Below are positions 3,115 to 60,542 of a DNA stretch of 64,000 bases, piece by piece. The stretch comes from Xenorhabdus griffiniae (lineage in GTDB: Bacteria; Pseudomonadota; Gammaproteobacteria; Enterobacterales; Enterobacteriaceae). The notes beneath the pieces were generated by a model. The model searched no databases and had not been told where the DNA came from. It saw only the letters and a list, made by a program, of their open reading frames with translations. Position numbers and translations under genes: made by a program. Location: positions 1-64,000 of the forward strand of contig NZ_LDNM01000030.1 of NCBI RefSeq assembly GCF_001028135.1, written 5' to 3'. Within the stretch, counting starts at the first letter, position 1. Each line of letters opens with the position of its first letter.

Positions 3115-4215
3115 ATGCAGAATGCCTTGCCAACGGAAAATTATGAAAATCAATTGACGGAGAAAGTTTATCGTCTAAAAGGAATGATGCTCCCCTTTAG
3201 CGCACCCGAACCTGAAGTTTTCCGTTCCCCGGCATCACATTACAGAATGCGCGCAGAATTCCGTATCTGGCATGAGGAAGATGACCTCTACCACATTATG
3301 TTTGATCAACAGACCAAACAGCGTATCCGCATTGATCAATTTCCAGTGGCCAATCAGCTCATCAATAAAATGATGCAAGCCATCATGGCTGGCGTAAAAG
3401 ACAATCCCGTATTACGCCATAAACTGTTTCAGGTGGATTACCTTTCTACCCGCAGTAACAAAATTATTGTCTCCCTGCTTTACCACAAAAAACTGGGGGA
3501 TGAATGGCGTGAACATGCAACCGCTCTGCGTACTCAACTCATCGCCGCAGGGTTTGATGTGCAACTTATTGGACGCGCTGCAAAAACCAAGATCATGCTT
3601 GACCATGACTATATAGATGAAGCGTTGTCTGTTGCCGGTAAGACGATGATTTACCGTCAGGTCGAAAATAGCTTCACACAACCGAATGCCAGTATCAATG
3701 TTCATATGTTGGAATGGGCTATTGATATTACTAAAGGCTCGAAAGGTGACTTGCTTGAGCTGTATTGTGGCAATGGTAATTTCTCCCTGGCGCTGGCGCA
3801 GAATTTTGAACGGGTATTAGCGACAGAAATTGCCAAGCCTTCCGTAGCTGCTGCCCAATTTAATATCGCAGCGAACAAAATTGATAACGTACAGATTATC
3901 CGCATGTCAGCGGAAGAATTTACCCAGGCGATGAACGGAGTGCGTGAGTTTAACCGATTGCAAGGCATTGATTTAAGCCGTTATCAATGTGAAACCATTT
4001 TTGTTGATCCACCGCGTAGCGGACTGGATGAAGAAACGCTAAAAATGGTCCAAGCGTATCCACGTATTCTTTATATTTCCTGCAATCCAGAAACACTCTG
4101 CCAAAATCTGGAGACGCTGACACAAACCCACAAAATCAGCCAACTGGCACTCTTTGACCAATTCCCTTATACCCACCATATGGAGTGTGGTGTCCTACTG
4201 GAAAAAAGAACATAG
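3115..4215 (+). CDS. trmA: tRNA (uracil-5-)-methyltransferase
   Basis: Makes m5U54 (ribothymidine) in the T-loop of tRNAs using S-adenosylmethionine. The product is 366 aa, as in E. coli. An N-terminal RNA-contacting region is followed by a Rossmann methyltransferase domain with [16 protein letters not shown] (SAM site, about 214-229), the DPPRSGLD motif (about 299-306) and the nucleophilic cysteine in YISCNPETL (about 324). The start at ATG 3115 aligns with the E. coli N-terminus. It is divergent from btuB and ends at a strong terminator shared with convergent yijD. Confidence 0.97.
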
Positions 4216-4230
4216 TCGTCATTAAAAATC

Positions 4231-4265
4231 AAAACGCCACCCAATTGACTTTGTGGCGTTTTTTA
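4231..4265. terminator. trmA/yijD bidirectional intrinsic terminator
   Basis: Inverted repeat AACGCCAC / GTGGCGTT with a run of T after it on the plus strand and A/T-rich flanks on both sides. It lies between the convergent genes trmA and yijD. Confidence 0.85.
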
Positions 4266-4289
4266 TTGAATCGTTCTCGATAAAAGCGA

Positions 4290-4667
4290 TTAGCTTTGGC
4301 TTTCTGAAGTAAGCGCTACTTGCTGCTTGCGTTTTTTCATCTTTAGGTAGATCCAAAACACCAAGACAGTACCAATAACGACAGGCAAGAAATTAGAGCC
4401 AATTGCTGGATATTCCATCCGAATAAAGGCGTTATACACAAACATACCTAAAAAGAAGCATCCCACAGCCAGCTTGGGTAATCCGTCTGCCATCGGATAA
4501 TTCAAATAACGTTGGTGGAGACAATACAAAGAAAGTACCAAGGCAATAAGAGGGAAAATAGAAAAAGGGACAAATGAATTAAAAAATATTGAGAAAGTTC
4601 CGTGTGTTGCCATTCCAACGATAAGAGCCAGCAACATGGTGCTTTTATCTTGGCGGTATTGTTCCAT
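4290..4667 (-). CDS. yijD: YijD family inner-membrane protein
   Basis: Small integral membrane protein of 125 aa with no defined function. It has four hydrophobic segments (about residues 11-30, 34-49, 65-83 and 90-107) and a lysine-rich cytoplasmic tail. The sequence, including CLHQRYLN and EYPAIGSNF, matches E. coli YijD. It lies 21 bp downstream of fabR on the same strand and is almost certainly in one operon with it, as in E. coli. Confidence 0.9.
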   Translation of the reverse strand: MEQYRQDKSTMLLALIVGMATHGTFSIFFNSFVPFSIFPLIALVLSLYCLHQRYLNYPMADGLPKLAVGCFFLGMFVYNAFIRMEYPAIGSNFLPVVIGTVLVFWIYLKMKKRKQQVALTSESQS

Positions 4668-4688
4668 CGTATTATTCTCCTTTCATTA

Positions 4689-5351
4689 TTATTCAGAGGG
4701 TTTAGGGATCGCTTTAGAGACAGTGTTTTTTTCTTGCTCACGACGATACCAATAATAAGCGCCTTTGGAAATCATGCGGAGTTGCAAAACCAAACGCTCT
4801 TCGAGACGACGCCTTTTTTCTTCATCAATATCCAGCGCTTCTGCACCTGCACTGAACACGATTGTCACCATCGCCTCGGCTTGTATTTCAGTGAAATGGC
4901 GGGGCATATGGCTGGCTTGCTCAAGGTAGTCTGCCAATTCAGCAATAAAATGTTGGATTTCCCGTGCTACAGCCGCACGAAATTCAGCCGATGTACCGGA
5001 GCGTTCACGCAGCAACAGCCGGAACGCATTAGGATTGTTGCCAATAAACTCCATGAAGGTTGAAACCGAAGTACGGATGACACTGCCGCCTTTGGCGATG
5101 CGCTGACGTGCCTGACGCATTAACTGACGCAACATCAAACCACTTTCATCGACCATCGTCAGCCCCAGTTCATCCACATCACGAAAATGTCGATAAAAAG
5201 AAGTTGGTGCAATACCCGCCTCCCGAGCCACTTCCCGTAGGCTAAGGCTGGTAAAACTGCGTTCAGCACTGAGTTGGCGAAATGCCGTCTCAATCAGGGA
5301 GCGGCGGGTTTTTTCTTTCTGTTTTGCTCTAACGCCGGTTACGTTACTCAC
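4689..5351 (-). CDS. fabR: TetR-family repressor of unsaturated fatty acid synthesis FabR
   Basis: Represses fabA and fabB in response to the ratio of unsaturated to saturated acyl-thioesters, so sets membrane fluidity. The product is 220 aa. An N-terminal TetR helix-turn-helix (about residues 12-58; recognition region [20 protein letters not shown]) is followed by a helical ligand and dimer domain that is nearly identical to E. coli FabR across [16 protein letters not shown]. The start is a GTG at 5351. The gene is the first of a fabR-yijD pair and is divergent from sthA. Confidence 0.95.
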
Positions 5352-41238: not shown

Positions 41239-41560
41239 TTAGGTATAAAAATAGCGCGTCAGATAGAAAAATATAGGGGCGGCAAAGCAAAGTGAGTCGA
41301 TTCTATCCAACACTCCACCGTGACCTGCAATTATTCCACCAAAATCCTTCACTCCACTGTCTCGTTTAATCGCCGACATACATAATCCCCCCATAAATCC
41401 CAGCAGGGTGATTGCCAACGACATCAGTCCCGCCTCCCAAGGGGAAAAAGGCGTTACCCAGAACGACAACAGGTAACATCGTATTTTTATTCGTGCCTGT
41501 CTGGTGAAAATGGTACAAAATACCAGCCAGAAATCCATTTTCCATTCTGGTAAGGCCATG
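41239..41560 (-). pseudogene. C-terminal remnant of a CDP-diglyceride synthase-like protein (YnbB/CdsA family)
   Basis: The last about 75 codons read as an intact CdsA-superfamily C-terminus: MSAIKRDSGVKDFGGIIAGH then [18 protein letters not shown], which resembles E. coli YnbB. The upstream sequence runs into the next frame (a GFLAGI-like piece near 41530) and then into the oppositely oriented ligase gene. So the N-terminal two thirds are missing and at least one frame change is likely. The fragment overlaps the first codons of the waaL-like gene on the other strand. Confidence 0.72.
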
Positions 41561-42772
41561 TTTAAAGAAACTATCAAAAATCACTTGTCTTGGGGTACTT
41601 TTTTCGTCGGTGGTTACATCGCATTTGTTTATGTAACAGGCATCACGCGTTATAAAAACCTCTTCTTTGCATTGATAGCATTAATCGCACTCTATTTTCT
41701 TATTAAAAACCCCAAAGGCTGCCTCTCTGCGTTGAAGAACAATATCGTACTGGCTTTGGGAATATTAACTTTGGCTTATCTCTATTCGATTGTTATTTCA
41801 CCTGATCCCATACTTAGTTTCAGTGAAATAAAAACACCTTTTTTCAGAGATGTCGTTCTCTCCAGTATCATCATTACATTAGCATTAAGTCATACGGATA
41901 CACTTAAAATCCAGAAAATGATTATGGGTTCCTTTCTGCTTGGGTTGTCATTCATTACGCTGAAAGAAATGTACCTGTTTTATCTGGATTATCAGAACAA
42001 TATCATGCCATTCACCAACTATAATCACCGCAGTGTGTCAGATGGCATTGTCTTCTTCTTTCCCGCACTAGTGGCTCTTTGGCATTTTCAAAAACCCCAA
42101 AATTATGTTCGCTTGGTACTGACAACGTTACTTATCTTATCCGTACTCTTTGTGTTACTGGGAACGCTTTCCAGAGGGGCATGGCTCGCCGTTTTTGTGA
42201 TGTTTTTCATGATGATAATCATGAATAAAAATTGGAAAACGTTCATTGCCAGCATTGTTTTTATCTGCGCCGCCATATTTGCTATCAAATCTGATTACCT
42301 TGGTAAGGGTTCTGCTTTGACTTACAAGCTGGAGCAAACTGATAGCAGTCACCGATATAGCAATGGAACACAAGGTTCAGCACTTACCTTAATTCTGGAA
42401 AATCCTATCAAAGGCTATGGTGCTGGCAACAAGATCTATGACCAGATTTATAATGAGAGCGCTAAAAATTACCCTGATTGGACATATCAAACTTCCTTGG
42501 GGCCTCATAATATTTTCCTGACAATTTGGTTTTCTGCCGGCCTATTGGGGATAGGCGCCTTTTTATTTTTAATCTACTTTTATCTGAAACAATCGGTTCA
42601 AGAGTGGAACACAAGCACCGGCTGCAATAAGCAAGCTGGGCTAATCTTACTTATCTCTTTCTTTGGATATTTTATTGTCAGAGGGAACTTTGAAAGTGTT
42701 CATTTGAACATTTTGGGGATTTACCTTGGCTTACTGGCCGCATTGTGCTCAAAAAGATGGAATAAAGCTTAA
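41558..42772 (+). CDS. waaL: O-antigen ligase family protein (WaaL-like)
   Basis: Polytopic inner-membrane protein of 404 aa from ATG 41558 (an ATG at 41504 would add 18 residues inside the antisense remnant). About 10-12 TM helices. The Wzy_C region has LLGTLSRGAWLAVF (about 205-218) and a periplasmic loop ending TSLGPHNIFLTIWFSAGLLG (about 312-331); the conserved GPHN/H motif supports a ligase that joins undecaprenyl-PP-linked O-antigen to lipid A-core. Sequence alone does not fully separate ligases from Wzy polymerases. Its location outside the O-antigen operon, beside a core-type glycosyltransferase, favours WaaL. Lower GC than the flanking core genes. Confidence 0.68.
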   Translation: MFKETIKNHLSWGTFFVGGYIAFVYVTGITRYKNLFFALIALIALYFLIKNPKGCLSALKNNIVLALGILTLAYLYSIVISPDPILSFSEIKTPFFRDVVLSSIIITLALSHTDTLKIQKMIMGSFLLGLSFITLKEMYLFYLDYQNNIMPFTNYNHRSVSDGIVFFFPALVALWHFQKPQNYVRLVLTTLLILSVLFVLLGTLSRGAWLAVFVMFFMMIIMNKNWKTFIASIVFICAAIFAIKSDYLGKGSALTYKLEQTDSSHRYSNGTQGSALTLILENPIKGYGAGNKIYDQIYNESAKNYPDWTYQTSLGPHNIFLTIWFSAGLLGIGAFLFLIYFYLKQSVQEWNTSTGCNKQAGLILLISFFGYFIVRGNFESVHLNILGIYLGLLAALCSKRWNKA

Positions 42773-47397: not shown

Positions 47398-47436
47398 CAG
47401 AGCGCTGGTAGCTGCTAAGCCAAGAGCGGTAGCGTG
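47398..47436 (+). promoter_or_regulatory. JUMPstart sequence with ops element
   Basis: CAGAGCGCTGGTAGCTGC followed by AAGAGCGGTAGCGTG. The ops core GCGGTAGCGTG (47426-47436) is exact; RfaH binds this element on the paused polymerase and increases elongation through long polysaccharide operons. It is 182 bp before the first gene. Confidence 0.85.
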
Positions 47437-47618: not shown

Positions 47619-48755
47619 ATGGTGAAAGATTTACTTAAAATAGTAATTAATTATTTGCTAAAGATCATATTGCTACCTTTTTATTTATTCCCTATAAATA
47701 ATAAAAGAATTGTATTTATGAGTTATTCAGGTTTGCAATATTCTTGTAATCCTAAATATATATCTGATTTCCTTAAGGACAATCATAATGATTATGAGTT
47801 AGTTTGGGTATTTAAAGAACCGGATAAATACTTTTTGGATTCCTCAATAAAAAAAGTTAAATATCTTTCAATTAGATATTTATATACTGTGATAACAAGT
47901 AAATTTTACTTTAGCAATAATGGTTTTAATCATTTCTTTTTTATCAGAAAGGGACAAAGATTTGTTCAGACCTGGCATGGCGGAGGGGCTTATAAAAAAA
48001 GAAGATCGTTAAATCAGGATAAAAACGCATTGCAGAGATTACTTGATAATGAACATGATCGTACGATAACTGATTTTATTTCTAATTCTCAATATTTTAC
48101 TGACTATTTTATCAGGGACTCAGTATACAAAAATAATATTTTAAACACAGGGATGCCGAGAAATGAATTTTTGCTTAGAAATAAAACAAATGAAAAATTT
48201 ATAAATAATATAAAAAATAATTTTGAAAATTCACTCGAAAAATATTATATCATTTTATACGCACCAACTTGGCGTGATGATGGTAGCATTTATGAATTTC
48301 CTGACTTTAACAAAATATTGGAAACAGTGAGAGCTAAATTTAATAAAGAACCTATTTTATTATTAAGGAGTCATCACTGTCAGGAATTAAAAAATGATTT
48401 AAGTTGCAATTTCAGTGACGTCAGAACATATCCTGATATGCAAGAGTTACTTTTAATTTCGGATATGTTAATTTCAGATTACAGTTCATCTATTTGGGAT
48501 TTTTCTTTATTAGCTAAGCCATGCTTCTTGTATGCACCAGATCTTAAACACTATGAAGATATAAGGGGATTTTATACTCCTATTCGTAGTTGGGGATTTG
48601 ATGTTTGCCAAACATCTGAAGAATTATATGACGCTATAAGAGGTTTTGTACCTGGGATATATAGAGAGAATATCGAAAAAATGCACCGAAGTTTCAATTC
48701 TTTTGAAAATATAAATTCAACATCTCAACTCTTAAGTAAGTTAGGAATTAATTAG
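47619..48755 (+). CDS. CDP-glycerol/alditol phosphotransferase family protein (TagB/TagF-like)
   Basis: The product is 378 aa. Pfam Glyphos_transf-type GT-B fold: FVQTWHGGGAYKK (about 112-124), LYAPTWRDDG (about 209-218), and the signature MLISDYSSSIWDFSLLAKPC (about 286-305) then LKHYEDIRGFYTP. In Gram-positives this family transfers glycerol- or ribitol-phosphate from CDP-alditol to build teichoic acids. Here it is first in an O-antigen locus with a cytidylyltransferase and an SDR downstream, so it probably adds an alditol phosphate to the repeat or polymerises it. A very short hydrophobic N-terminus (about 8-24) suggests membrane association. AT-rich compared with cpxA. Confidence 0.82.
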   Translation: MVKDLLKIVINYLLKIILLPFYLFPINNKRIVFMSYSGLQYSCNPKYISDFLKDNHNDYELVWVFKEPDKYFLDSSIKKVKYLSIRYLYTVITSKFYFSNNGFNHFFFIRKGQRFVQTWHGGGAYKKRRSLNQDKNALQRLLDNEHDRTITDFISNSQYFTDYFIRDSVYKNNILNTGMPRNEFLLRNKTNEKFINNIKNNFENSLEKYYIILYAPTWRDDGSIYEFPDFNKILETVRAKFNKEPILLLRSHHCQELKNDLSCNFSDVRTYPDMQELLLISDMLISDYSSSIWDFSLLAKPCFLYAPDLKHYEDIRGFYTPIRSWGFDVCQTSEELYDAIRGFVPGIYRENIEKMHRSFNSFENINSTSQLLSKLGIN

Positions 48756-48779
48756 ATGTCTACTATTAAGTTAATGCTT

Positions 48780-48954
48780 GTATTTATACAACGTATTGAG
48801 CGTGAAAATCTGACCCTGCGTAATCGCACTAAGCGATTAAACCGGAAAACGTTGGGTTATTTAAAATCCCCTGAAATGCATGACAAAATTATTGGCACTT
48901 TCATTGAAAGAAAATATTACGTTTAAGGCCAATCAACACTTTGAATACACTACC
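48780..48954 (+). pseudogene. IS1-family InsB C-terminal remnant and right end
   Basis: The plus strand encodes QRIERENLTLRNRTKRLNRK and then TLGYLKSPEMHDKIIG, ending at TAA 48924-48926. This matches the InsB C-terminus but differs from the copy just downstream, so it is a different IS1 lineage. The sequence to 48954 (ending ACACTACC) looks like its terminal repeat. The rest of this element is gone. Confidence 0.75.
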
Positions 48955-48977
48955 CTTCCGTTGGTCATGCTCCCAAT

Positions 48978-49481
48978 TTATTGATAGTGGTGAATGTTCA
49001 GATAATGCCCAATAATTCGATCATGCATTTCAATGGATTTTAAAAAAGATAATGTTTTGCGGGTTAATCTTGCCAAATGCTGGCGAAGGTTCAGGTTATG
49101 TCTCTCTATACGTTGAGTATAACGTTTGCTGACCACATGGAGTTTCCCGATTAACGCTTTCTCATAGCTTTTCCAGCCATCGGTCATGTAGATCACAATC
49201 TTGAAAGGAGCAAGTAACGCCAGCAGGCGCATCAATGTTTTCTTTGTTCTTGGGCCAAAAACATGAGCGATCACCTTGCGTTTTATCCTGTCGTAGGCAT
49301 AAAAGAGCCAACTAGGTTGACTCTTTGATTTCACATATGACCACTGTTCATCCATTTCGCAACAGACAATGACTTCGGAGCCGGGAATAATGACTTCCGT
49401 GACGGATTTCGGTCTTAGCTTTTTAAGTGGCGAAGTACAGTATTCAGGCCAATCCCCATGACACGTGCTGTAGCCCGACAT
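48978..49481 (-). CDS. insB: IS1 transposase InsB region
   Basis: 167-codon frame with the IS1 DDE-type catalytic domain: [35 protein letters not shown], and a C-terminal [20 protein letters not shown]. In IS1 it is expressed only as an InsAB' fusion after a -1 frameshift at the end of insA; insA is broken here, so this copy is probably inactive although its own frame is open. Confidence 0.8.
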
Positions 49482-49680
49482 CCCATGCCATTCATCGCCA
49501 TATCGACAATTTGCTTATGTGTACCAGGGCGACAGGCGGTATAAGTAAATTCCAGTTGCCAAGACAAGAATGGCGGCAGGATAGGCAAAGATAACGTTGA
49601 TGACCTGAGCGGGAACGCCCATTTCGATGAATTCCTTTCACTGCACAACAAGATGGGCAGGCCACATCAATCTTTGCCAT
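49415..49680 (-). pseudogene. insA: insA of the IS1-family element, frameshifted
   Basis: The N-terminal part reads [20 protein letters not shown] with the zinc-finger cysteines. The C-terminal HTH part ([20 protein letters not shown]) is in another frame. The break coincides with a tandem TCTTGTCTTG, that is, a 5-bp duplication relative to the expected reading. InsA, and therefore InsAB', should not be made. Confidence 0.8.
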
Positions 49681-49740
49681 CGGAATGTTCTCCAAATAGG
49701 CATACTATACACGACTCAATAAATTAATGTCATGACCGGG

Positions 49741-50086
49741 GGTTTGAATTATATGGAATTAAACCATTTGGTAATTTAATTGAATTTGTCTCAATATTGG
49801 ATGCAAATAAAACAAATAAAACAAATAAATTATTTTATATTAACTCAGCTTACGTGCAATTGCTTTTAGTTTATGGGAAATTATTTATTTCCTGGTAATG
49901 CTTGCCTATACTAAAATTGGTAAAGATATTATTAAACGAAATGACAACTACTTTGGTGTTGTTTTGATATTTATTTTTATTCACTCAATGACTGATCCAC
50001 AGTTAATGTCGCCAGAGTTCAATCCTTTCCTATTATGCCTGGGTTATTATGGATTAGGTCAGTATAAAGATAATTTATTTAAATAA
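49741..50086 (+). pseudogene. C-terminal remnant of an O-antigen polymerase (Wzy)
   Basis: Truncated at its 5' side by the IS1 element. Frame 1 gives YGIKPFGNLIEFVSILDANK then INSAYVQLLLVYGKLF. A one-base shift near 49880-49890 leads to YFLVMLAYTKIGKDIIKRND and FIHSMTDPQLMSPEFNPFLL. The SAYVQLLLVYG and IHSMTDPQL...NPFLL motifs are typical of Wzy C-termini. It ends 5 bp before wzx. This looks like the original polymerase, destroyed by truncation and frameshift. Confidence 0.7.
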
Positions 50087-50091
50087 AAATC

Positions 50092-51531
50092 ATGAGAATA
50101 AGAACGTTAAAATTTAATTTTGCAATGAACATGCTTCTAACGGTTTCGAACTTTTTGTTTCCGTTGATTACTTTTCCTTATGTATCGCGTGTTCTGAGCC
50201 CGGTTGGTACAGGCAAGGTAGCTTTCGCCTATTCTATTGTATCTTACTTCACAATTTTGGCTGCATTTGGAGTGACAAATTATGGCATTCGGGCTTGTGC
50301 CCAAGTGAGAGATGACAAGGAAAAACTCTCCAAAACAGTTCAAGAAATTCTAGCTATTAATATTTTTTTGATGGTGATAGTCTATGCTCTCTATTTAACA
50401 GGAGTTTATTTTGTTCCAGAGTTGAATGTTGAGAAAGAGTTGTTTCTTATTTCTGGTGTAAATATTTTATTTACAATTGTTGGTGTCGAATGGCTATATA
50501 AAGGTGTTGAACAATACTTTTATATTACAATTCGCTCTATTATTTTTAAATTAATTGCATTTTTTCTTATTTTTACTTTTATTAAATCACCCGAAGATTA
50601 TAGCATATATGCATTTATTATCATTTTTGCCACTGTAGGTTCAGGTGTTGTTAATTTATATAATTTAAAAAATATAATTCATATTAAACGTTATGCAAAA
50701 TATGACCTTAAAAAGCATATTAAGCCAATGGCCATATTTTTTATAATCACTATAGCTGTAGCTTTTTACGTGCATGTCAGCGTTGCTTTGTTAGGTTTTA
50801 TGCAAGGTAATGAGGAAGTGGGGTATTATAGTGCTGCTTATCGTATAAAAGACGTAATGGTGAGTATTATTACCTCGCTTGGAGCTGTGCTTTTATCTCG
50901 TTTAAGCTATTACGTCGAAAATAATATGCAAGATAAATTCAATGACGTAATAGAAAAATCTATGCAGTTTATATTTATAATGTCACTGCCTCTTGTGGTA
51001 TTTTGTATACTTTTTGCAAAGTCAGCAGTGCTAATTCTGGTCGGTTCAGCCTATGAAGGTTCTGTTGTACCACTCCAAGTCCTTTCTGTTATTATATTTA
51101 TTGTCGGCATATCTAATTTAACGGGAATCCAAATGTTGATCCCGTTAAAACAAGAAAAATACCTCTGCTATTCTGTTGTTTGGGCCGCCATTATTAATAT
51201 GGCATTGAATATAGTACTCATTCCCCGCTTAGGTGCTGTGGGGACTGCAATTTCAGTTGCAATTGCTGAGCTTAGCATTCTTTTAATTCAGATTTATGTT
51301 TTAAGAAAGTTTAGCTACATACTTTTTGGCAAAATTAATTATATTAAGCTGATAATAAGTCTGGGTTTGGCTAGCATATTTTCTATATGTTTAAATAATT
51401 ATCTCCAGTATAGCGAGGTGATTGTTTTCTTGATAAGCGCTAGTATGTTTTTCATCTGTTATTTCTTAATGCTGCTGATTATGAAGGAAATGTTTATCTT
51501 ATCGGTACTAAATCAAATAAAAAAAAGTTAA
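50092..51531 (+). CDS. wzx: O-antigen flippase Wzx
   Basis: The product is 479 aa with 12-14 TM helices, polysaccharide_synt/MOP superfamily. The N-terminal FPLITFPYVSRVLSPVGTGK (about 20-39) and AFGVTNYGIR (about 58-67) are the typical start of this flippase family. It moves undecaprenyl-PP-linked repeat units across the inner membrane. It is 5 bp after the wzy remnant and 19 bp before the cytidylyltransferase. Which repeat unit it handles cannot be read. Confidence 0.88.
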   Translation: MRIRTLKFNFAMNMLLTVSNFLFPLITFPYVSRVLSPVGTGKVAFAYSIVSYFTILAAFGVTNYGIRACAQVRDDKEKLSKTVQEILAINIFLMVIVYALYLTGVYFVPELNVEKELFLISGVNILFTIVGVEWLYKGVEQYFYITIRSIIFKLIAFFLIFTFIKSPEDYSIYAFIIIFATVGSGVVNLYNLKNIIHIKRYAKYDLKKHIKPMAIFFIITIAVAFYVHVSVALLGFMQGNEEVGYYSAAYRIKDVMVSIITSLGAVLLSRLSYYVENNMQDKFNDVIEKSMQFIFIMSLPLVVFCILFAKSAVLILVGSAYEGSVVPLQVLSVIIFIVGISNLTGIQMLIPLKQEKYLCYSVVWAAIINMALNIVLIPRLGAVGTAISVAIAELSILLIQIYVLRKFSYILFGKINYIKLIISLGLASIFSICLNNYLQYSEVIVFLISASMFFICYFLMLLIMKEMFILSVLNQIKKS

Positions 51532-51550
51532 TAAAAAATTAGGAGATTAT

Positions 51551-52276
51551 ATGAATCACGCAGTTATTTTTGCCGGTGGAACTGGATCTCGCATGAATTC
51601 GAGGAACCTGCCAAAACAATTTTTAAAAATCTATGGAAAACCAGTTATTATTCATACCTTAGAAGTTTTTGAAAATTGCGATGCTATTGATAACATTGTC
51701 GTTGTAATTATTAAAGGTTGGGAAGATTATCTAAAGAAACTGCTTGAACAATATCGCATTACTAAGGTCAAAAAGGTCGTTTCTGGGGGCGAAACTGGGC
51801 AACAGTCTATTTACAATGGGCTGGGAGAATTAGATGACGGGGTAGTGTTGGTACATGACGGTGTTCGTCCGTTTATTACAAGTAAGCTAATTAAAGAAAA
51901 TATTGCTGTTGCTCAAACTAAAAAAATTGCAATTACTTGTGTAAAGGCAAAAGAAACATTAGTGTCCGTTGAAGATAATAAAATCAATGGAGTGTTAAAA
52001 CGCGAAGTATCTTACATAGCCAGAGCGCCTCAGGCTTTCGATCTTAAATTATTAAAATCTGCTCATCACAAGGCAATTGTAGACAATGATTTTTCGTTTG
52101 TAGATTCTTGTGCCATTGTGAAGCATTATTTCCCTGAATCTGATTTCCACATCGTAGAATGTGGTTCTGAAAATATTAAAATTACAACTCAGGAAGATTT
52201 TTATCTGGCAAAAGCGATGTTTTCCTTAGAAGAAGATGAACAACTTTATGGTTTCAAGCGTGAGAATGAAAAATGA
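51551..52276 (+). CDS. TarI/IspD-family cytidylyltransferase (probable CDP-alditol pyrophosphorylase)
   Basis: The product is 241 aa. Signature IFAGGTGSRMNSRNLPKQFL (about 6-25), HDGVRPFI (about 104-111) and RAPQAFD (about 155-161) place it in the IspD/TarI family. The AGG-x-GSRM...LPKQF pattern is closer to TarI/Bcs1-type CDP-ribitol enzymes than to IspD. It likely activates an alditol or pentulose phosphate with CTP for the phosphotransferase at the start of the locus. It overlaps the following SDR gene by 4 bp, so the two act together. Strong AGGAG upstream of ATG 51551. Confidence 0.78.
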   Translation: MNHAVIFAGGTGSRMNSRNLPKQFLKIYGKPVIIHTLEVFENCDAIDNIVVVIIKGWEDYLKKLLEQYRITKVKKVVSGGETGQQSIYNGLGELDDGVVLVHDGVRPFITSKLIKENIAVAQTKKIAITCVKAKETLVSVEDNKINGVLKREVSYIARAPQAFDLKLLKSAHHKAIVDNDFSFVDSCAIVKHYFPESDFHIVECGSENIKITTQEDFYLAKAMFSLEEDEQLYGFKRENEK

Positions 52277-53331
52277 TTAGAGACACCATTTTATTAGAAG
52301 ACCTTGAATTTATTGCAGCTAAAATTTTTAAAAGTGGCCATTTCTCGAATTCTTCCGTACTGGTGACAGGGGCTACAGGCTTAGTAGGGTCATTTCTTGT
52401 TAAAAGCATGCTATATGCTAATAAAGCTTTAGGCACAAATATCAACGTGCTGGCAAGTGTTCGTAATACAGAGAAAGCCAGGAACACCTTCACAGACTTC
52501 ATATCCGATACCAATCTGGAATTTGTGACTGCGAACTTACTGGAGCCGATTAATCTTGAGCAGAAAGTTGATTTCATTGTCCATACGGCAAGTATTACTG
52601 CATCCAAAGAGATGGTTGAGAATCCTACGGGCGTGCTGTTCACAGCATTTGAAAGCACTAAAAACCTTCTTGACTATGTTAAAGCTCATCCTCACTGTAA
52701 AATGGTCTACATATCATCAATGGAATACTATGGACAGGTTACTGATGAGTTTAGCAATGTAACGGAAGATAAACTAGGTTACATCGATTTGAACAAACCG
52801 AGAAGCTGCTACCCTGAGAGTAAGCGAGTGTGTGAATCTTTATGTAATGCTTATGCCGCGCAGTATGATCTTAGCGTGTGCAGCGCAAGATTAGCTCAAA
52901 CATTTGGGGCTGGAGTTCCCTTTTCTGATAATCGCGTATTTGCTCAGTTTGCGAAGAGCGCGCTCAATGACACCAATATTGTCCTGCATACAACAGGAGA
53001 GTCTGAAGGGAATTATTGTTATACCGCAGATGCTGTCTATGCAATCTTCTTACTGTTATTTAAAGGCGAGAAAGGACAAAGCTATAATGTTGCGCATAAT
53101 CATAGCACCATCATTAATATGGCGAGATTGGTTAATGAAAAATTAGCAGACAATAAAATTAAAGTTGAAGTGAGAATTCCTGAAGATTTGAGTAATTATG
53201 GCTACGCTCCCACAGTTAAATTAAAGCTAAATTCAGATAAATTGCGAGACCTGGGTTGGGAACCATCAATGGATCTCGAAAATATGTTTAGAAGAATGTG
53301 TGAAAGTTGGAAATTAGAAAGCACAGAGTAA
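52273..53331 (+). CDS. NAD(P)-dependent epimerase/dehydratase-family protein, partner of the cytidylyltransferase
   Basis: Extended SDR of 352 aa: VLVTGATGLVGSFLVKS (about 29-45), a Ser-Tyr-Lys triad in SSMEYYGQ and SCYPESKRVCE (Tyr/Lys about 179/183), and EGNYCYTADAVYAI near 240. Overlaps the TarI-like gene by 4 bp. In pneumococcal capsule loci a nucleotidyltransferase/SDR pair of this kind makes CDP-arabinitol or NDP-mannitol; a reduction of a CDP-ketose to CDP-alditol here is an inference. A sugar epimerase role cannot be excluded. Confidence 0.7.
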   Translation: MIRDTILLEDLEFIAAKIFKSGHFSNSSVLVTGATGLVGSFLVKSMLYANKALGTNINVLASVRNTEKARNTFTDFISDTNLEFVTANLLEPINLEQKVDFIVHTASITASKEMVENPTGVLFTAFESTKNLLDYVKAHPHCKMVYISSMEYYGQVTDEFSNVTEDKLGYIDLNKPRSCYPESKRVCESLCNAYAAQYDLSVCSARLAQTFGAGVPFSDNRVFAQFAKSALNDTNIVLHTTGESEGNYCYTADAVYAIFLLLFKGEKGQSYNVAHNHSTIINMARLVNEKLADNKIKVEVRIPEDLSNYGYAPTVKLKLNSDKLRDLGWEPSMDLENMFRRMCESWKLESTE

Positions 53332-53488: not shown

Positions 53489-53611
53489 ATGAAGGTTTAT
53501 ATCGTGAGTCACAGGGAATATACATTCCCTAACGATGATGGATTTTTACCTATAAAGGTAGGTAAGCGTGTTGAAAAGATAGGCAATCATTATGTTGAAG
53601 ATTGCAGTAAT
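53489..53611 (+). pseudogene. DUF4422 glycosyltransferase-like gene, 5' fragment
   Basis: The ATG at 53489 opens MKVYIVSHREYTFPNDDGFL then PIKVGKRVEKIG, the typical N-terminus of DUF4422 proteins found in capsule and O-antigen loci. After about 41 codons the frame enters the inverted-repeat element and stops at 53627-53629. The remaining about 200 codons are not in the window. The preceding 157 bp after the SDR gene (53332-53488) hold nothing I recognise. Confidence 0.65.
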
Positions 53612-53673
53612 AACCTGAACTTCGTTTAAGAAAGGAAGGGAAAAATGAACTAAGTGCCGGAGGCACGATCAAA
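53612..53673 (+). repeat. 62-bp inverted repeat, left arm
   Basis: Begins AACCTGAACTTCGTTTAAG and ends GGCACGATCAAA; contains its own small dyad GTGCC-GGA-GGCAC. It matches the right arm in all but two or so positions. Confidence 0.9.
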
Positions 53674-53727
53674 GTTTTTGCTTAGAAAATAAAATCGTGG
53701 AGATCCCCAGGCTATGGTTACTTTACC

Positions 53728-53949
53728 TCAGTTTTGTTTAAGCACCGCAATTTCATGGGTACGTAAACCTAAGCTCGGCTTTTTCGGCTGGAAGGTATAA
53801 GCAATGAGTCCTGATACAACCTCCAGTAAAAAGCCGACTACGCTCCCGTGCCTTGAATGTTCTATCTGAGAAATATTTTTCAATTGGTCATTGACGGTCT
53901 CTAGCAAAAAACGTTTTCTTAACATAGCCTTGTCCCAAAGCGATAAAAA
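53728..53949 (-). pseudogene. IS982-family transposase, C-terminal fragment
   Basis: About 73 codons on the minus strand, including [35 protein letters not shown] and [15 protein letters not shown], match the conserved C-terminus of IS982 transposases. The catalytic N-terminal portion is missing; the frame begins exactly at the inner edge of the right repeat arm. Confidence 0.78.
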
Positions 53950-54011
53950 TTTGATCGTGCCTCCGGCACTTAGTTCATTTTTCCTTTCCTTTCTTAAACG
54001 AAATTCAGGTT
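53950..54011 (-). repeat. 62-bp inverted repeat, right arm
   Basis: Reverse complement of the left arm with about two differences (for example GAATTTCG versus GAACTTCG). It ends 9 bp before the wzy start codon. Confidence 0.9.
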
Positions 54012-54020
54012 AAATAACAC

Positions 54021-54974
54021 ATGACATTCAGAAACAAAAAAATTTATTTTATTAGTGTTGCATTAAGTTGCATAATCGTTTTTACACTATCTTCAATTCT
54101 TCTTCCTTACTATATTAATGGAGACCAATATCATTATATTTTATGGTATAAAGAAATAAAAAGACTTGACTTCCCATCTAGCTATGCTTATTACTCTGAA
54201 GTATTAAATAAATATGAAGTAGTCTACTTTTTTTATATTAAACTAACAAGCTACTTGCTATCAAAAGAATTATCCATTTCTTTAGCAAACACTGTGTTGG
54301 CATTTTCATTTTTAAGATATTCTAAATCAATAAATTTACACCCTATATTAGCAATTTTTCTTGTCACTACAACTTATTACTTTTTAATATTATATTTATC
54401 TGCAGAAAGGCTCAAATTCGGTTTTATATTCTTTTTTTTATATTTTTCATTTCTGTTTGAATCAAATAAAAAAAACATATTACTAATGGCATTATCTATT
54501 GTTGGTCATTTACAAATGTTAATTATTTATATTACAATGTACTTGACTTCATTCATTAAAAAAATCACATCATTGAAAGTCTCAAAATTAGAACTCATCG
54601 CAATCACATTAATTGTTGTTTTTTTTATATTTTCATGGGATTTTTTAATAATCAAACTAAATGCATACTATAATCAAGGAGAAAATGATTATGGTAATAT
54701 TTGGAAGTTTTTTATTTTATGGTTATTATCTATATATTGCACAAGAAAAATTAATTTAAATTATCTGCTTATAACAATAATATTGATAATATTCGATTTG
54801 ATTGCGGGAGCAAATAGAATATTTATATTCCATTTCTTTATATATCTTTATTATTCATCTCAACGGAATAAAGGTTTAAATATACCAACATTATTAATTG
54901 TTTTTTATTTTACCATTCAGTCTATGGAATTTATAGATAAAACTTTACAATATGGTAATGGTTTTTATAAATAA
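54021..54974 (+). CDS. EpsG-like O-antigen polymerase (Wzy)
   Basis: The product is 317 aa, very hydrophobic, with about 8-10 TM helices. An early loop YYINGDQYHYILWYKEIKRL (about 30-49), just after TM1, resembles the EpsG/Wzy family 'DY..Y...Y' motif. Very AT-rich. It is the only apparently complete polymerase candidate, since the other wzy is a fragment. A little short for Wzy, but start and end look natural. Function rests on topology and context. Confidence 0.62.
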   Translation: MTFRNKKIYFISVALSCIIVFTLSSILLPYYINGDQYHYILWYKEIKRLDFPSSYAYYSEVLNKYEVVYFFYIKLTSYLLSKELSISLANTVLAFSFLRYSKSINLHPILAIFLVTTTYYFLILYLSAERLKFGFIFFFLYFSFLFESNKKNILLMALSIVGHLQMLIIYITMYLTSFIKKITSLKVSKLELIAITLIVVFFIFSWDFLIIKLNAYYNQGENDYGNIWKFFILWLLSIYCTRKINLNYLLITIILIIFDLIAGANRIFIFHFFIYLYYSSQRNKGLNIPTLLIVFYFTIQSMEFIDKTLQYGNGFYK

Positions 54975-55069: not shown

Positions 55070-56164
55070 TACCTGTCGTCATTGAAGATAATTGATTTTT
55101 TATCCCAATCAGATCATGCTAGCGACCATGAAAATTCATCTGACAGAAGACCAAAAAAAGCCCTCAAATTGATGCATGATACGACTCGTGATAGCCGAAT
55201 ATATGACCGCATCAAGGCCGTGCTTTTGGCATCAGAAGGCTGGACTGCTCAGGTGATTGCTCAGATCTTGCGGATTAATGAAAGTACGGTGAGCCATCAT
55301 CTGAAAAAGCACTTCTCTCAGGAAAAGCTCTCCTCTGAAAACGGGGGTTCTGAAAGCCGTTTGCCGAACAACCCACAGAATTGGTTGAGTATCTGACGGC
55401 AAATTTGATGCACACCACGGCGCAAATTGTGGCCTATGTCTGGGCACGGGGGCAGGTTACTTTCACCGTCGCAGGGATGATGAAATGGCTTCACCGTCAT
55501 GGATTCAGTTATAAAAAGCCGATGTGCGTTCCTTATAAATTCGATGCAGGTAAACAGCAACAATTTATTGGTGACGACAACGCACTGAAAAACAAAATAG
55601 GTGAAAATGAGCCGACTCTGTTTATTGATACCGTACATCCTTCACGATCCACCAAATTAAGCTACGGCTGGATGAAATCCGGGAAGAAACCTGTCCAAAT
55701 GGTCGAAACCACGGGCGGGCAAACCCGCCTAAACGTGATTGGAGCTCTCAATTTAACGCGGATTGAAAATACCATGATTCGTGAATATTCGAGTATTAAC
55801 GCTAAAAGTGTCGTCTTTTTTAGCTCAATACGGGAAACCTACAGCTTTCGCAAAAAAATTCACATTATTCTGGATGGAGCCGGTTACCATCGCTCTGAAA
55901 TAGTGCAATTTTTCGCAGAAGTCCTGAATATTGAGTTGCATTATTTGCCGCCTTATAGCCCGAATCTCAATCCCATTGAGCGATTATGGAAATACGTGAA
56001 CGAACAAGTGCGAAATAACGTCTATTTCCCGGATGCGAAAACCTTCCGTGAAACACTTCATCATTTTTTTCATGTTACATTACCAGAAAAAGCACAGGAA
56101 TTGACTATCCGACTGACAGATAGTTTCCAGACTTTAATTCCTGCATCTTCAAGTTAATTGCGTA
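55070..56164 (+). mobile_element. IS630-family insertion sequence (about 1.1 kb)
   Basis: Contains an IS630-type transposase and is flanked by TA on both sides (55068-55069 and 56165-56166), the family's target duplication. The ends share TATAC and TTGAAGAT at matching distances, an imperfect terminal inverted repeat. It separates wzy from the next glycosyltransferase gene. Confidence 0.75.
55128..56157 (+). pseudogene. IS630-family transposase in three reading frames
   Basis: The natural start appears to be ATG 55128 (MKIHLTEDQKK). The frame then moves -1 at an A7G run (A_AAA_AAG) into ALKLMHDTTRDSRIYDRIKA, the HTH region. A second -1 change near 55350-55365 leads to the catalytic part: LFIDTVHPSR, HIILDGAGYHRSE and YLPPYSPNLNPIERLWK supply the D, D and E. 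With two breaks it is probably inactive, although the first site is a classic slippery heptamer. Confidence 0.75.
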
Positions 56165-57272: not shown

Positions 57273-58307
57273 ATGTTCAAAAATAAAATATTGTTAATAA
57301 CTGGTGGTACAGGTTCCTTTGGAAATGCAGTATTAAGAAGGTTTCTAAATACGAATATTAAAGAGATTCGTATTTTTTCTCGTGATGAGAAAAAACAAGA
57401 TGATATGCGTAAGAAATATCATAACTCTAAGTTAAAGTTTTATATTGGTGATGTCCGCGACTACTCCAGTATACTTAACGCTACACGTGGAGTTGACTAT
57501 ATTTACCATGCAGCAGCTCTTAAACAAGTTCCTTCTTGTGAATTCCATCCAATGGAAGCAGTAAAGACGAATGTTCTTGGTACTGAAAATGTTCTTGAAG
57601 CGGCAATAGTAAATGAAGTTAAACGCGTTGTTTGCCTCAGTACTGATAAAGCTGTTTATCCTATTAATGCCATGGGAATTTCTAAGGCCATGATGGAAAA
57701 AGTGATGGTTGCCAAATCACGTAACTTAAACAGCAGCAAAACTATCATTTGTGGCACTCGCTATGGAAATGTGATGGCATCACGTGGTTCTGTGATTCCT
57801 TTATTTGTCGACTTGATTCGTTCTGGAACGCCTCTGACAATAACAGATCCTAATATGACGCGTTTTATGATGACACTTGAAGATGCAGTGGATCTAGTAC
57901 TATACGCCTTCGAACATGGAAGCAATGGTGATATTTTTGTTCAAAAAGCACCAGCAGCTACAATTGAAACATTGGCAATCGCATTAAAAGACTTATTGAA
58001 CGTTAACGAACATCCAATCAATATTATTGGTACACGTCACGGTGAAAAATTATATGAAGCACTTCTCAGTAGAGAAGAAATGATTGCCGCAGAGGATATG
58101 GGTGACTACTATCGAGTTCCACCAGATCTGCGTGATCTTAACTATGGTAAATATGTTGAACATGGTGACAAGCGTATTTCAGAGGTCAAAGATTATAATT
58201 CGCATAATACACAGCGCTTGGATACTGAATGTATGAAAAAATTGCTTCTTAAATTATCATTCATCCGTGCTTTGTGTGCTGGTGAAGAATACGAACTGGA
58301 CGCATGA
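57273..58307 (+). CDS. fnlA: UDP-GlcNAc 4,6-dehydratase/5-epimerase (FnlA/WbjB/CapE)
   Basis: First enzyme of UDP-N-acetyl-L-fucosamine synthesis. The product is 344 aa. SDR of the PseB/FlaA1 type: LLITGGTGSFGNAVLRRFL (about 7-25), IYHAAALKQVP (about 76-86), STDKAVYPINAMGISKAMME (about 122-141; the Tyr of a usual YxxxK is replaced by Met, as in this class) and GTRYGNVMASRGSV. It is followed by fnlB and fnlC in the order known from E. coli O26 and Pseudomonas O11. Confidence 0.9.
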   Translation: MFKNKILLITGGTGSFGNAVLRRFLNTNIKEIRIFSRDEKKQDDMRKKYHNSKLKFYIGDVRDYSSILNATRGVDYIYHAAALKQVPSCEFHPMEAVKTNVLGTENVLEAAIVNEVKRVVCLSTDKAVYPINAMGISKAMMEKVMVAKSRNLNSSKTIICGTRYGNVMASRGSVIPLFVDLIRSGTPLTITDPNMTRFMMTLEDAVDLVLYAFEHGSNGDIFVQKAPAATIETLAIALKDLLNVNEHPINIIGTRHGEKLYEALLSREEMIAAEDMGDYYRVPPDLRDLNYGKYVEHGDKRISEVKDYNSHNTQRLDTECMKKLLLKLSFIRALCAGEEYELDA

Positions 58308-58308
58308 T

Positions 58309-59412
58309 ATGAAAATACTTATCACTGGCACTCAAGGATTTATAGGTAGCAACCTCTGCTTGCGTCTTGAAGAAGCTGGTTTTACAGACCTAATAAAAAT
58401 TGATCGTAATACCTCTGAACAAGACCTTATCTCAGGTTTACAAAAAGCCGAATTTATCTTCCATTTGGCCGGGAGTAATCGACCGAAAAATGAAACAGAA
58501 TTCACTGAAGTCAACAGCAAGTTAACAAAAAAGATTGTTAATTACCTCGCCAAGAAAAATATAAAAACGCCCATTATGCTGAGTTCTTCAACACAAGCTG
58601 AATGGGATAATGCCTATGGCATAAGTAAAGCAGAAGCAGAGAAATGGGTAGAAGAGTATGGCGAAACTAATAATATAGATTATTATATTTATCGCTTCCC
58701 TAATGTATTTGGTAAATGGTGTCGGCCAAATTACAATTCATTCGTGGCTACTTTCTGCTATAATATTGCAAACAATTTGGACATTACGATTAATGATCCC
58801 TTAACAACAGTAACATTAATTTACATTGATGATCTTTGTTCCGAATTAATTAATTTATTACAGAAAAAATATCACAGAGGTTATCTGAAGATTACGCCAG
58901 AATATAATACAACAATCGGAGAAGTTTCAGATCTTATTTATCGTTTTAAAAATAGCCGTAATACGTTGATTACTGAAAATGTAGGGACGGGATTTACCAG
59001 AGCCTTATATTCAACTTGGTTAAGTTATTTACGACCAGAACAATTTAGCTATCAGATTCCAATATATGGTGATACAAGAGGTTTTTTCTGTGAAATGCTT
59101 AAAACTCCTTCAACAGGCCAATTTTCATTTTTTACCGCATATCCGGGTATTACCAGAGGCGGACATTATCATCACACTAAAAATGAGAAATTTTTAGTCA
59201 TCAAAGGCCAGGCCAAGTTTAAATTTAAACATGTCATTACTGGTGAAAAATATGAACTTAATGTTTCTCATGAAAATTATGAAATAGTTGAAACTGTTCC
59301 TGGTTGGTCACACGATATTACTAATATCGGTGATGATGAAATGATAGTTATTCTTTGGGCAAATGAAATATTCGATCGAAAATCTCCAGATACAATAGCG
59401 AAGTCATTATAA
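58309..59412 (+). CDS. fnlB: bifunctional SDR/cupin enzyme (FnlB/WbjC/CapF)
   Basis: Second enzyme of UDP-L-FucNAc synthesis: C-3 epimerisation by the cupin domain and C-4 reduction by the SDR domain. The product is 367 aa from ATG 58309; an upstream in-frame start at 58267 overlaps fnlA. N-terminal MKILITGTQGFIGSNLCLRL, then SSSTQAEWDNAYGISKAEAE (about 101-120). C-terminal cupin from about 245 with RGGHYHHTKNEKFLVIKGQA. One base after the fnlA stop; overlaps fnlC by one base. Confidence 0.9.
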   Translation: MKILITGTQGFIGSNLCLRLEEAGFTDLIKIDRNTSEQDLISGLQKAEFIFHLAGSNRPKNETEFTEVNSKLTKKIVNYLAKKNIKTPIMLSSSTQAEWDNAYGISKAEAEKWVEEYGETNNIDYYIYRFPNVFGKWCRPNYNSFVATFCYNIANNLDITINDPLTTVTLIYIDDLCSELINLLQKKYHRGYLKITPEYNTTIGEVSDLIYRFKNSRNTLITENVGTGFTRALYSTWLSYLRPEQFSYQIPIYGDTRGFFCEMLKTPSTGQFSFFTAYPGITRGGHYHHTKNEKFLVIKGQAKFKFKHVITGEKYELNVSHENYEIVETVPGWSHDITNIGDDEMIVILWANEIFDRKSPDTIAKSL

Positions 59413-60542
59413 TGAAAAAATTTAAAGTAATGTCTGTGGTTGGAACTCGTCCTGAAATTATTCGTCTCTCACGTGTACTAGCAAAACTAGATCAATATTG
59501 TGAGCATATTCTTGTACATACGGGACAAAATTACGATTTTGAACTAAATGAAGTATTCTTCAATGATCTTGGTGTACGTAAACCGGATTATTTCCTTAAT
59601 GCAGCAGGAAAGAATGCGGCTGAAACAATTGGTCAAGTAATTATTAAAATTGATGAAGTTTTGCAAACTGAAAAACCTGAAGCAATGCTTATCCTTGGCG
59701 ATACTAATTCCTGTATATCTGCTCTACCAGCTAAAAGAAGAAAAATACCTATTTTTCATATGGAAGCAGGTAATCGCTGCTTTGATCAGCGAGTTCCCGA
59801 AGAGATTAATCGCCGCATAGTTGATCATACAGCAGATATTAACCTCACTTATAGCGATATTGCTCGCGATTATTTATTAGCAGAAGGCATTCCTGCCGAC
59901 CGAGTAATTAAAACCGGAAGCCCTATGTTTGAAGTGCTTTCACATTATATGCCACAAATTGACAACTCAGATATATTAAATAGACTAAATCTTCGCAATG
60001 GGAATTTTTTTGTTGTTAGCATCCACCGTGAAGAAAATGTTGATTCTCCACGACAGCTCACTAAATTTTCCCAGCTTATTAATATAATTGCTGAAAAATA
60101 TAATTTACCTGTAATTGTTTCCACACATCCACGTACACGTAATCGTATCAACGATTACGGTATAGAATTTCATCCAAATATTCAGTTATTAAAACCACTT
60201 GGATTTCACGACTATAATCATTTACAAAAACATGCTCGTGCAGTGTTATCTGATAGTGGTACGATAACTGAAGAGTCTTCGATTATGAACTTCCCAGCAC
60301 TAAATATTCGCGAAGCTCATGAACGCCCTGAAGGTTTTGAGGAAGCATCAGTGATGATGGTTGGTTTAGAATGCGATCGTGTTTTACAAGCATTGGCTAT
60401 TCTTGAATCACAGTCTCGCGGAGAGGAACGCCTGCTGCGCCAAGTTTATGATTATAGTATGCCTAATGTTTCTGATAAGGTTGTCAGAATAGTTCATTCC
60501 TACACAGATTATGTTAAGCGAGTTGTCTGGAAAGAATATTAA
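59412..60542 (+). CDS. fnlC: UDP-L-PneNAc/talose 2-epimerase (FnlC/WbjD/CapG)
   Basis: Last step to UDP-L-FucNAc. The product is 376 aa of the WecB-like UDP-GlcNAc 2-epimerase family: SVVGTRPEIIRLSRVLAKLD (about 8-27), ILGDTNSC (about 93-100), HMEAGNRCFDQRVPEEINRR (about 115-134), VSIHREENVD (about 203-212) and SDSGTITEESS (about 279-289). The start codon shares one base with the fnlB stop, and the stop shares one base with the wbuB start, indicating tight coupling. Confidence 0.92.
   Translation: MKKFKVMSVVGTRPEIIRLSRVLAKLDQYCEHILVHTGQNYDFELNEVFFNDLGVRKPDYFLNAAGKNAAETIGQVIIKIDEVLQTEKPEAMLILGDTNSCISALPAKRRKIPIFHMEAGNRCFDQRVPEEINRRIVDHTADINLTYSDIARDYLLAEGIPADRVIKTGSPMFEVLSHYMPQIDNSDILNRLNLRNGNFFVVSIHREENVDSPRQLTKFSQLINIIAEKYNLPVIVSTHPRTRNRINDYGIEFHPNIQLLKPLGFHDYNHLQKHARAVLSDSGTITEESSIMNFPALNIREAHERPEGFEEASVMMVGLECDRVLQALAILESQSRGEERLLRQVYDYSMPNVSDKVVRIVHSYTDYVKRVVWKEY

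Follow-up and report, generated by a model that had tools for sequence, protein, structure and literature searches.

Gene content of the locus

The window analysed here is a stretch of 64,000 nucleotides of the Xenorhabdus griffiniae contig NZ_LDNM01000030.1. Our subject is the group of genes at its positions 47,619 to 53,331, which very probably forms a ketose-first cytidine diphosphate (CDP)-alditol module inside an O-antigen operon of the Wzx/Wzy type, judging from sequence comparison and structural modelling. Four of the genes are intact open frames on the forward strand (Table 1): gpt encodes a Glyphos_transf protein, wzx a flippase, tarI a cytidylyltransferase and sdr an extended short-chain dehydrogenase/reductase (SDR). 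The ATG of sdr at 52273 and the TGA of tarI at 52274-52276 give the exact four-base ATGA overlap that an earlier note on this DNA had described. The Glyphos_transf protein and Wzx named there were likewise confirmed by profile search (PF04464, 1e-67, 229.2 bits against a gathering score of 22.1; PF01943, 5.6e-32). Wzx has 12 hydrophobic segments, and a search of PHROGs with it returned no match. The interval also holds two features beyond those listed in the earlier note, namely an element of the insertion sequence family IS1 and the C-terminal remnant of a wzy-like gene.

Gene content makes the identification as an O-antigen locus well founded, because the module is surrounded by cpxA (upstream; NCBIfam CpxA, above cut-off), the O-antigen ligase gene RfaL (41504-42772; NCBIfam, above cut-off), genes for uridine diphosphate (UDP)-N-acetyl-L-fucosamine (L-FucNAc) and a WbuC cupin gene. 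The L-FucNAc genes belong to the same operon as the module. A glycosyltransferase gene (PF00534) begins at 56158, upstream of FnlA, and another (PF00534) lies 3' of the WecB-type epimerase gene together with the NCBIfam-backed WbuC. The genome measures 4.18 Mb and the contig ends at 65,916; in 2-kb windows, its guanine-plus-cytosine content is 0.40-0.49 up to 48 kb and 0.32-0.37 beyond. The operon is headed by a JUMPstart/ops-like element, one mismatch away from the 29-base pattern; this pattern found matches in 0 of 100 shuffles.

Loci are numbered here with an L. The 80 related loci are those kept of 403 SDR relatives in the genome collection; near-copies are counted among them, and several of the stretches end at contig ends. 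The order wzx-tarI-sdr recurs in four loci of Pasteurellaceae (L025, L026, L027, L113), so the gene arrangement is not due to chance.

Table 1. Features in and around the module, in window positions (aa, amino acids)
Feature	Position	Strand	Details
JUMPstart/ops-like element	47407-47435	+	heads operon; 29-base pattern, 1 mismatch
gpt, Glyphos_transf (TagF/TarF-like) protein, predicted CDP-alditol phosphotransferase	47619-48755	+	378 aa; first gene of operon
IS1-family element	48963-49737	-	transposase 48978-49481, PF03400 1.8e-64
wzy-like pseudogene, C-terminal remnant in two frames	49737-50083	+	~110 last residues
wzx flippase	50092-51531	+	479 aa; PF01943 Polysacc_synt 5.6e-32; 75% identity to L025 Wzx
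Cytidylyltransferase (tarI), IspD/TarI family, SDR-linked branch	51551-52276	+	241 aa; PF01128 IspD 8.3e-45
Extended SDR (sdr), predicted NADPH-dependent CDP-ketose reductase	52273-53331	+	352 aa; PF01370 Epimerase 1.4e-37
Truncated 5' end of DUF4422-type glycosyltransferase gene	53489-53629	+	~40 codons before insertion; open stretch 46 codons
Insertion-sequence remnant, 68-base inverted ends	53611-54012		arms 96% complementary; cuts glycosyltransferase gene
Membrane protein, possible replacement Wzy	54021-54974	+	317 aa; 5 hydrophobic segments
IS630-type element	55082-56157		plasmid-collection matches only Xenorhabdus
UDP-L-FucNAc genes: FnlA, WbcJ-type reductase, WecB-type epimerase	57273-60542	+	same operon; NCBIfam TIGR04130, NF047837, TIGR00236 above cut-off

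The predicted reductase and its cytidylyltransferase partner

Among solved proteins ranked by sequence, the SDR is nearest to Campylobacter jejuni HS5.17 (PDB 8v4g/8v4h, 2.4e-43), with human UDP-glucuronate decarboxylase next at 1.2e-26. Its AlphaFold model, made from an alignment of 40 sequences (39 of the 80 related loci plus the window), has a mean predicted local distance difference test score (pLDDT) of 89.8 and shows an extra N-terminal helix, residues 5-19, before the Rossmann fold; HS5.17 likewise starts with an unusual N-terminal helix (PMC10918830). A Foldseek search with the model placed four HS5.17 chains on top. VIA-align matched model and HS5.17 with a Z of 38.3 over 325 residues (2.4 Å, 27-28% identity), compared to a Z of 32.4 for the next-ranked protein. 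No entry named Abp2 or Mnp2 occurred among the 50 structure matches listed, which says nothing on membership of those groups.

The predicted active site was compared at the 19 contact positions of HS5.17 named in PMC10918830, given here in HS5.17 numbering. Thirteen are identical in the window SDR (R56, K60, T98, S100, M139, E140, R164, Y167, K171, Q196, R208, T227 and Y295) and six differ. R56, K60 and R208 are the contacts of HS5.17 to the 2'-phosphate of reduced nicotinamide adenine dinucleotide phosphate (NADPH) (PMC10918830), and all 85 aligned rows have the same residue at R56, T98, E140, R164, Y167 and K171. The UXS1 row, in contrast to the window, departs from HS5.17 at R56, K60, T98, S100, M139, Q196, T227 and Y295. 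Window residues M150/E151 align with Ser-Glu in that row, and the dehydratases cited in PMC10918830 have Asp-Lys or Asp-Glu at the Met-Glu site.

The window pair thus resembles HS5.18/HS5.17 of C. jejuni HS:5 in joining a cytidylyltransferase to an extended SDR with an N-terminal helix, and its SDR shares with HS5.17 the NADPH-binding Arg/Lys/Arg, a Met-Glu in place of the dehydratase pair, the YxxxK motif and the Gln at the polyol. It differs in its setting, an Enterobacterales O-antigen operon rather than a Campylobacter capsule locus, and in the change of R233, D212 and F226. The model pair converts cytidine triphosphate (CTP) and D-fructose 6-phosphate to CDP-6-fructose and then to CDP-6-glucitol (PMC10918830). 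Likeness to the pneumococcal pairs is by description: Mnp1/Mnp2 (CDP-mannitol) has an equal two-gene logic as described in PMC10918830, and Abp1/Abp2 (CDP-arabinitol) has it as well, in part according to passages of PMC10118250. The abp genes are mentioned in PMC4047060 as well as in PMC10118250.

It is highly improbable that the SDR is instead an ordinary 4-epimerase of nucleoside diphosphate (NDP) sugars, a 4,6-dehydratase or a decarboxylase with no link to alditols. The Pfam domains Epimerase and GDP_Man_Dehyd do score over their cut-offs and the best NCBIfam models are those for dTDP-glucose dehydratase, heptose epimerase and GalE, but all 25 NCBIfam matches fall far under their cut-offs. 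The top solved match and the residues are those of a CDP-ketose reductase, M150/E151 is not the dehydratase pair, and the SDR is tightly linked to a cytidylyltransferase. No grouping with NDP-sugar 4-epimerases was seen in the sequence or fold ranking. Roles as 4-epimerase, dehydratase or decarboxylase were rejected on profile, PDB, residue and fold evidence together. Sequence and model make the enzyme type, a predicted CDP-ketose reductase, well supported, and its exact substrate less so.

Linkage to the cytidylyltransferase extends across the family. Of the 80 related loci, 75 have a cytidylyltransferase gene somewhere in the stretch that was fetched, in 50 cases within 250 bases of the SDR gene and on the same strand, and 62 carry a gene of Glyphos_transf or LicD type. 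Distances among cytidylyltransferases and among SDRs are correlated over 69 gene pairs (Mantel r 0.63, 0 of 999 permutations), although part of this correlation may stem from the species' common history. The earlier note proposed that a nucleotidyltransferase and an SDR, paired as in the Abp and Mnp systems, turn a ketose phosphate into a CDP-alditol; sequence, fold, active-site residues and linkage support this proposal.

The description of the window's cytidylyltransferase as TarI-like holds at the level of the family but not of the group. Its PDB matches are IspD/TarI proteins, and it scores 167.3 bits with NCBIfam NF001183 (D-ribitol-5-phosphate cytidylyltransferase; cut-off 166), a model outscored by the IspD-named NF001186 (189.9 bits), TIGR00453 (177.4) and NF009924 (176.9), each under its own cut-off. 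We built a tree from 24 of the 69 SDR-linked rows and four PDB stretches (three TarI or TarI-like, and IspD as outgroup), in which a branch with support of 100/99 separates the SDR-linked rows from the three solved TarI/TarI-like rows; the tree carries warnings of long branches for the IspD outgroup row and L043. Two further cytidylyltransferases deserve mention in their own right. In L021 (5271-5999), on a Lactiplantibacillus plasmid, an SDR-linked cytidylyltransferase is annotated as the isoprenoid gene ispD, probably in error. In L006 (206-2919), which belongs to a different genome of the same order, a 420-aa protein weakly matching PF04464 (25.2 bits, cut-off 22.1) precedes a fusion of cytidylyltransferase and short-chain reductase, 475 aa long, which we take to be Bcs1-like.

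The tree bears on a further alternative, in which CDP-ribitol would be made in the teichoic-acid order, by TarJ-type reduction of a pentulose 5-phosphate and then TarI. In its favor are the NF001183 score, slightly over the cut-off, and the CDP-ribitol pair predicted in Haemophilus parainfluenzae strain 17, whose O-antigen is predicted to contain ribitol phosphate (PMC3989065). Against it, the three IspD-named models reach higher bit scores without passing their own cut-offs, the tree places the cytidylyltransferase apart from the TarI group, and the SDR type is that of a CDP-ketose reductase. In addition, no TarJ-type dehydrogenase was found among the 10 locus proteins scanned with Pfam, the rest of the genome not having been searched for one. 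We consider this alternative improbable, and classical TarI/TarJ synthesis of CDP-ribitol was rejected on the cytidylyltransferase tree; CDP-ribitol made in the ketose-first order is possible.

Cytidylylation would come first and reduction second, because of the linkage, the tree and the biochemistry of HS5.18/HS5.17. In the proposed pathway, for which gene anatomy, homology and fold match were observed directly and the reactions and products are predicted, the cytidylyltransferase would, as its homology suggests, make a CDP-ketose from CTP and a ketose phosphate, either D-fructose 6-phosphate or a pentulose 5-phosphate. The SDR, by homology, fold and conserved residues, would then use NADPH to reduce C2 of the open-chain CDP-ketose, yielding a CDP-alditol. 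The Glyphos_transf protein would move alditol phosphate from this donor to a lipid-linked, L-FucNAc-containing O-unit, Wzx would flip the unit and some polymerase, perhaps the protein encoded at 54021-54974, would join the units. The order from ketose phosphate through CDP-ketose to CDP-alditol is probably different from that of teichoic-acid synthesis.

As for the transferase, its nearest solved protein is TagF (3l7i, 2.4e-37), ahead of Cps3D (8qoy, 1.8e-28) and TarL (8va1, 1.9e-19). It shares with TagF, TarF, TarL and Cps3D the PF04464 domain, alignability to the solved proteins and the His and SDYSS motifs (QTWHG at 117, LLRSHH at 248, SDYSS at 286). It differs from TagF, TarF and TarL in having 378 aa, in missing all the NCBIfam equivalogs (TarF 170.7 of 550 bits, TarL 90 of 1000, TarB 60.4 of 500) and in its predicted role, a single transfer to the O-unit rather than chain polymerization. 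At 1e-25, gpt is the single match in its own genome, and a family-wide draw of 148 further genomes gave none.

Several observations weigh against the proposed pathway. Six contact positions of the SDR differ from HS5.17, three of them side-chain contacts (N34 to T35, D212 to Q225, R233 to G246) and three backbone contacts as defined in PMC10918830 (T195 to A208, F226 to H239, L296 to A312), and because of these changes the seat of substrate and nucleotide may be unlike that of HS5.17, to which overall identity is no higher than 27-28%. A cytidylyltransferase is missing from five of the 80 related loci and a phosphotransferase from 18. Weak cytidylyltransferase-like matches (2.3e-7 and 4.9e-5) appeared in two of the eight control loci, which were taken around weaker SDR relatives at about 4 kb each and are unmatched in reach. 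The gpt protein is not close to the Glyphos_transf protein of L025, a relative at 1e-61 that falls outside its eight best; those eight have 33.9-37.7% identity and are located elsewhere. L026, L027 and L113 carry LicD and no Glyphos_transf match. With no close counterpart of gpt offered by the Pasteurellaceae cassette loci, a CDP-alditol is its assumed donor. Finally, with both the wzy-like gene and a glycosyltransferase gene disrupted, the cell may fail to display the product on its surface.

Candidate alditols

The earlier note held that no partner gene fixes the alditol. This is right for the window, and a single hint of a pentulose comes from a distant relative, L022 (5301-10252), on a Parabacteroides plasmid, where cytidylyltransferase, SDR, ribulose-phosphate 3-epimerase and two Glyphos_transf genes stand in a row. 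In a pentitol version of the pathway, D-ribulose or D-xylulose 5-phosphate would yield CDP-arabinitol or another CDP-pentitol, as with Abp1/Abp2, and we regard this as a serious candidate, at a little under an even chance. The L022 pair, whose SDR has 44% identity, is directly followed by the epimerase and the transferase genes, but among the 90 stretches scanned an epimerase lies beside the pair in L022 only, with none in the 80 genome loci, three further plasmid loci and six stretches. Likewise, L022 branches outside the subgroup of the window and has L/T/K at three marker places. The loss of R233 (G246 in the window) and the changes in other nucleotide and pyrophosphate contacts could, speculatively, seat a shorter substrate.

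A hexitol version, in which D-fructose 6-phosphate would give CDP-mannitol or CDP-glucitol as with Mnp1/Mnp2 and HS5.18/HS5.17, seems to us plausible at roughly a third. Among solved proteins, the sole relative of this type that came up is the fructose enzyme, and E140 and Q196, which in HS5.17 contact the glucitol hydroxyls at C5 and C3/C4 (PMC10918830), are kept; the same contacts could, however, hold a pentitol, and R233, D212 and F226 differ at an identity below 30%. Overall, we lean slightly to the pentitol over the hexitol version.

Position 233 divides the family, with Gly in 57 of the 85 rows (the window included) and Arg in 23. The SDR relatives fall mainly in two sets of contact residues, M-A-Q-R-Q-H-G-A as in the window and L-S-Q-R-E-H-R-N as in several Lachnospiraceae and, in similar form, Streptococcus; the two sets may mark different CDP-ketoses. 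The subfamily with Met150/Ala208/Gly246/Ala312 is large, consists mainly of Bacillota with a few Gram-negative O-loci, and is without the pyrophosphate Arg of HS5.17. A bolder proposal, which we put forward as speculative, is that this subfamily is a pentulose-specific CDP-ketose reductase (for CDP-arabinitol) or makes an undescribed CDP-alditol, and that the Xenorhabdus module perhaps outlived its own polymerase by way of an unrelated Wzy, so that the O-antigen would be a chimera of alditol phosphate and FucNAc.

Relatives, decay and biological meaning

Among the 80 kept of 403, the closest SDR relatives are those of H. parainfluenzae (L025, 74%), a metagenome-assembled Pasteurellaceae genome (L026, 72%) and Pasteurella langaaensis (L027, 72%). 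To the same three loci, Wzx has 75, 73 and 64% identity and the cytidylyltransferase 85, 84 and 82%. An SDR tree made with a quick method from 73 of 87 rows (leaving out seven near-copies and seven others, mostly shorter matches) groups the window with these three (SH-aLRT, a Shimodaira-Hasegawa-like approximate likelihood ratio test, 100), with warnings of long branches for UXS1 and HS5.17. The Pasteurellaceae loci (L025, L026, L027, L113) share with the window the order wzy-like gene, wzx, tarI, sdr, but they have LicD, UDP-galactopyranose mutase and other genes, and L025 has a Glyphos_transf gene as well; the LicD and GLF labels of L025 were checked with Pfam. Their wzy-like gene is open, whereas the window has a different transferase and FucNAc genes.

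Between the window and Pasteurellaceae, the proportions of nonsynonymous (pN) and synonymous (pS) differences are 0.10-0.18 and 0.68-0.84, with synonymous sites near saturation. Because of this saturation the shared cassette is taken to be old, and by sequence comparison it is under purifying selection; a recent transfer from Pasteurellaceae was rejected on the same ground. Its distribution is sparse. At 1e-25, the SDR was found in one of 30 genus genomes, the window's own, and not in its 29 congeners. For the cytidylyltransferase, the next best match outside its own genome among 60 relatives has 36% identity (4.8e-34). Order-wide, at 1e-40, matches occurred in seven of 394 genomes: besides the genome of the window itself, two have 74-75% identity, one of which is probably that of L025, and four have 34-41%. 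In a class-wide draw at 1e-30, nine of 369 genomes matched the SDR, the best besides the window at 33% identity. The wzx-tarI-sdr DNA had no match in E. coli. As a separate observation, a partial SDR relative lies at 3989-4708 of OR848602.1, an unannotated 4.7-kb record named as a Listeria phage, which may be host DNA.

The loss of the wzy-like gene was observed directly. IS1, with inverted arms at 48963-48984 and 49716-49737, sits where the front part of the gene is missing. The remnant matches the L026 protein at 63% to residues 316-385 and at 53% to residues 273-346, with a TAA inside the second match, and a search of the genome for a second copy gave no further match at 0.01. The Pasteurellaceae loci have an open gene of 384-388 aa just before wzx, with seven to eight hydrophobic segments in the three tested (L025, L026, L113). 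Its products have no match in Pfam, NCBIfam or PHROGs; by place and hydrophobic character they are probably the polymerase Wzy. Between gpt and IS1, a 61-base inverted duplicate (48835-48895 and 49009-49069) is a piece of a second, degraded IS1. In the plasmid collection, the only match of IS1 is a single Xenorhabdus record, an X. nematophila plasmid at 83.8% identity, and the IS630-type element likewise matches Xenorhabdus only, with one record at 80.2% identity and another at 87.6% over 15% of the query.

The truncated glycosyltransferase gene has weak matches to two 266-aa proteins, one of L026 (2120-2920, 9.1e-5) and one of L025 (341-1141, 1.1e-4), the latter a DUF4422 protein (PF14393, 1.8e-86). 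A genome search with this L025 protein was empty and missed even the window's own piece, which makes it weak evidence of absence. Among the 13 genome matches listed for the element at 53611-54012, one is the element itself and the others are partial. The membrane protein encoded downstream at 54021-54974 may be the present polymerase, judging from its place and appearance only; it has no match in Pfam, NCBIfam or PHROGs, and a comparison with 59 relatives gave no homologue at 1e-6.

These findings raise the question of whether the module is a relic, with pathway genes still open and a polymer no longer assembled after loss of the wzy-like and glycosyltransferase genes. The remnant beside IS1, the truncated glycosyltransferase and three insertion elements within 8 kb speak for such decay. 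Against it, the four genes gpt, wzx, tarI and sdr are all intact, the operon retains its JUMPstart-like element, and a new Wzy could be supplied by the second membrane protein. We judge a relic unlikely, though it deserves real weight. The claim in the earlier note that the surface polymer contains an alditol phosphate stands in part: the gene capacity is present and the intact locus is not, the wzy-like gene being dead and the glycosyltransferase truncated. Because the locus is partly decayed, alditol phosphate content is a prediction from gene capacity rather than for the living cell.

New here are the wzy-like remnant beside IS1 and the glycosyltransferase cut to about 40 codons. A search of the Xenorhabdus literature on O-antigen or alditols gave nothing on the module in the listed titles and abstracts. 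About 400 cytidylyltransferase/oxidoreductase pairs in more than 200 organisms are predicted to make CDP-glucitol and/or CDP-mannitol (PMC10918830). In Hafnia alvei PCM1191 the O-antigen contains arabinitol, and PMC4869667 reports that no genes for arabinitol were found in the cluster; a Gram-negative CDP-arabinitol pair, if identified, would be of immediate use given this gap. The module is also a compact test case for the ketose choice of the common Gly246 subfamily. The predicted CDP-alditol route, lately characterized, is now extended to an O-antigen operon of insect-pathogenic Xenorhabdus and linked to O-loci of Pasteurellaceae. Its interest lies in a decayed, perhaps re-partnered O-locus and in an SDR subfamily with a predicted function, and an O-antigen with negative charge from alditol phosphate could have a bearing on insect immunity, on symbiosis with nematodes and on phage receptors.

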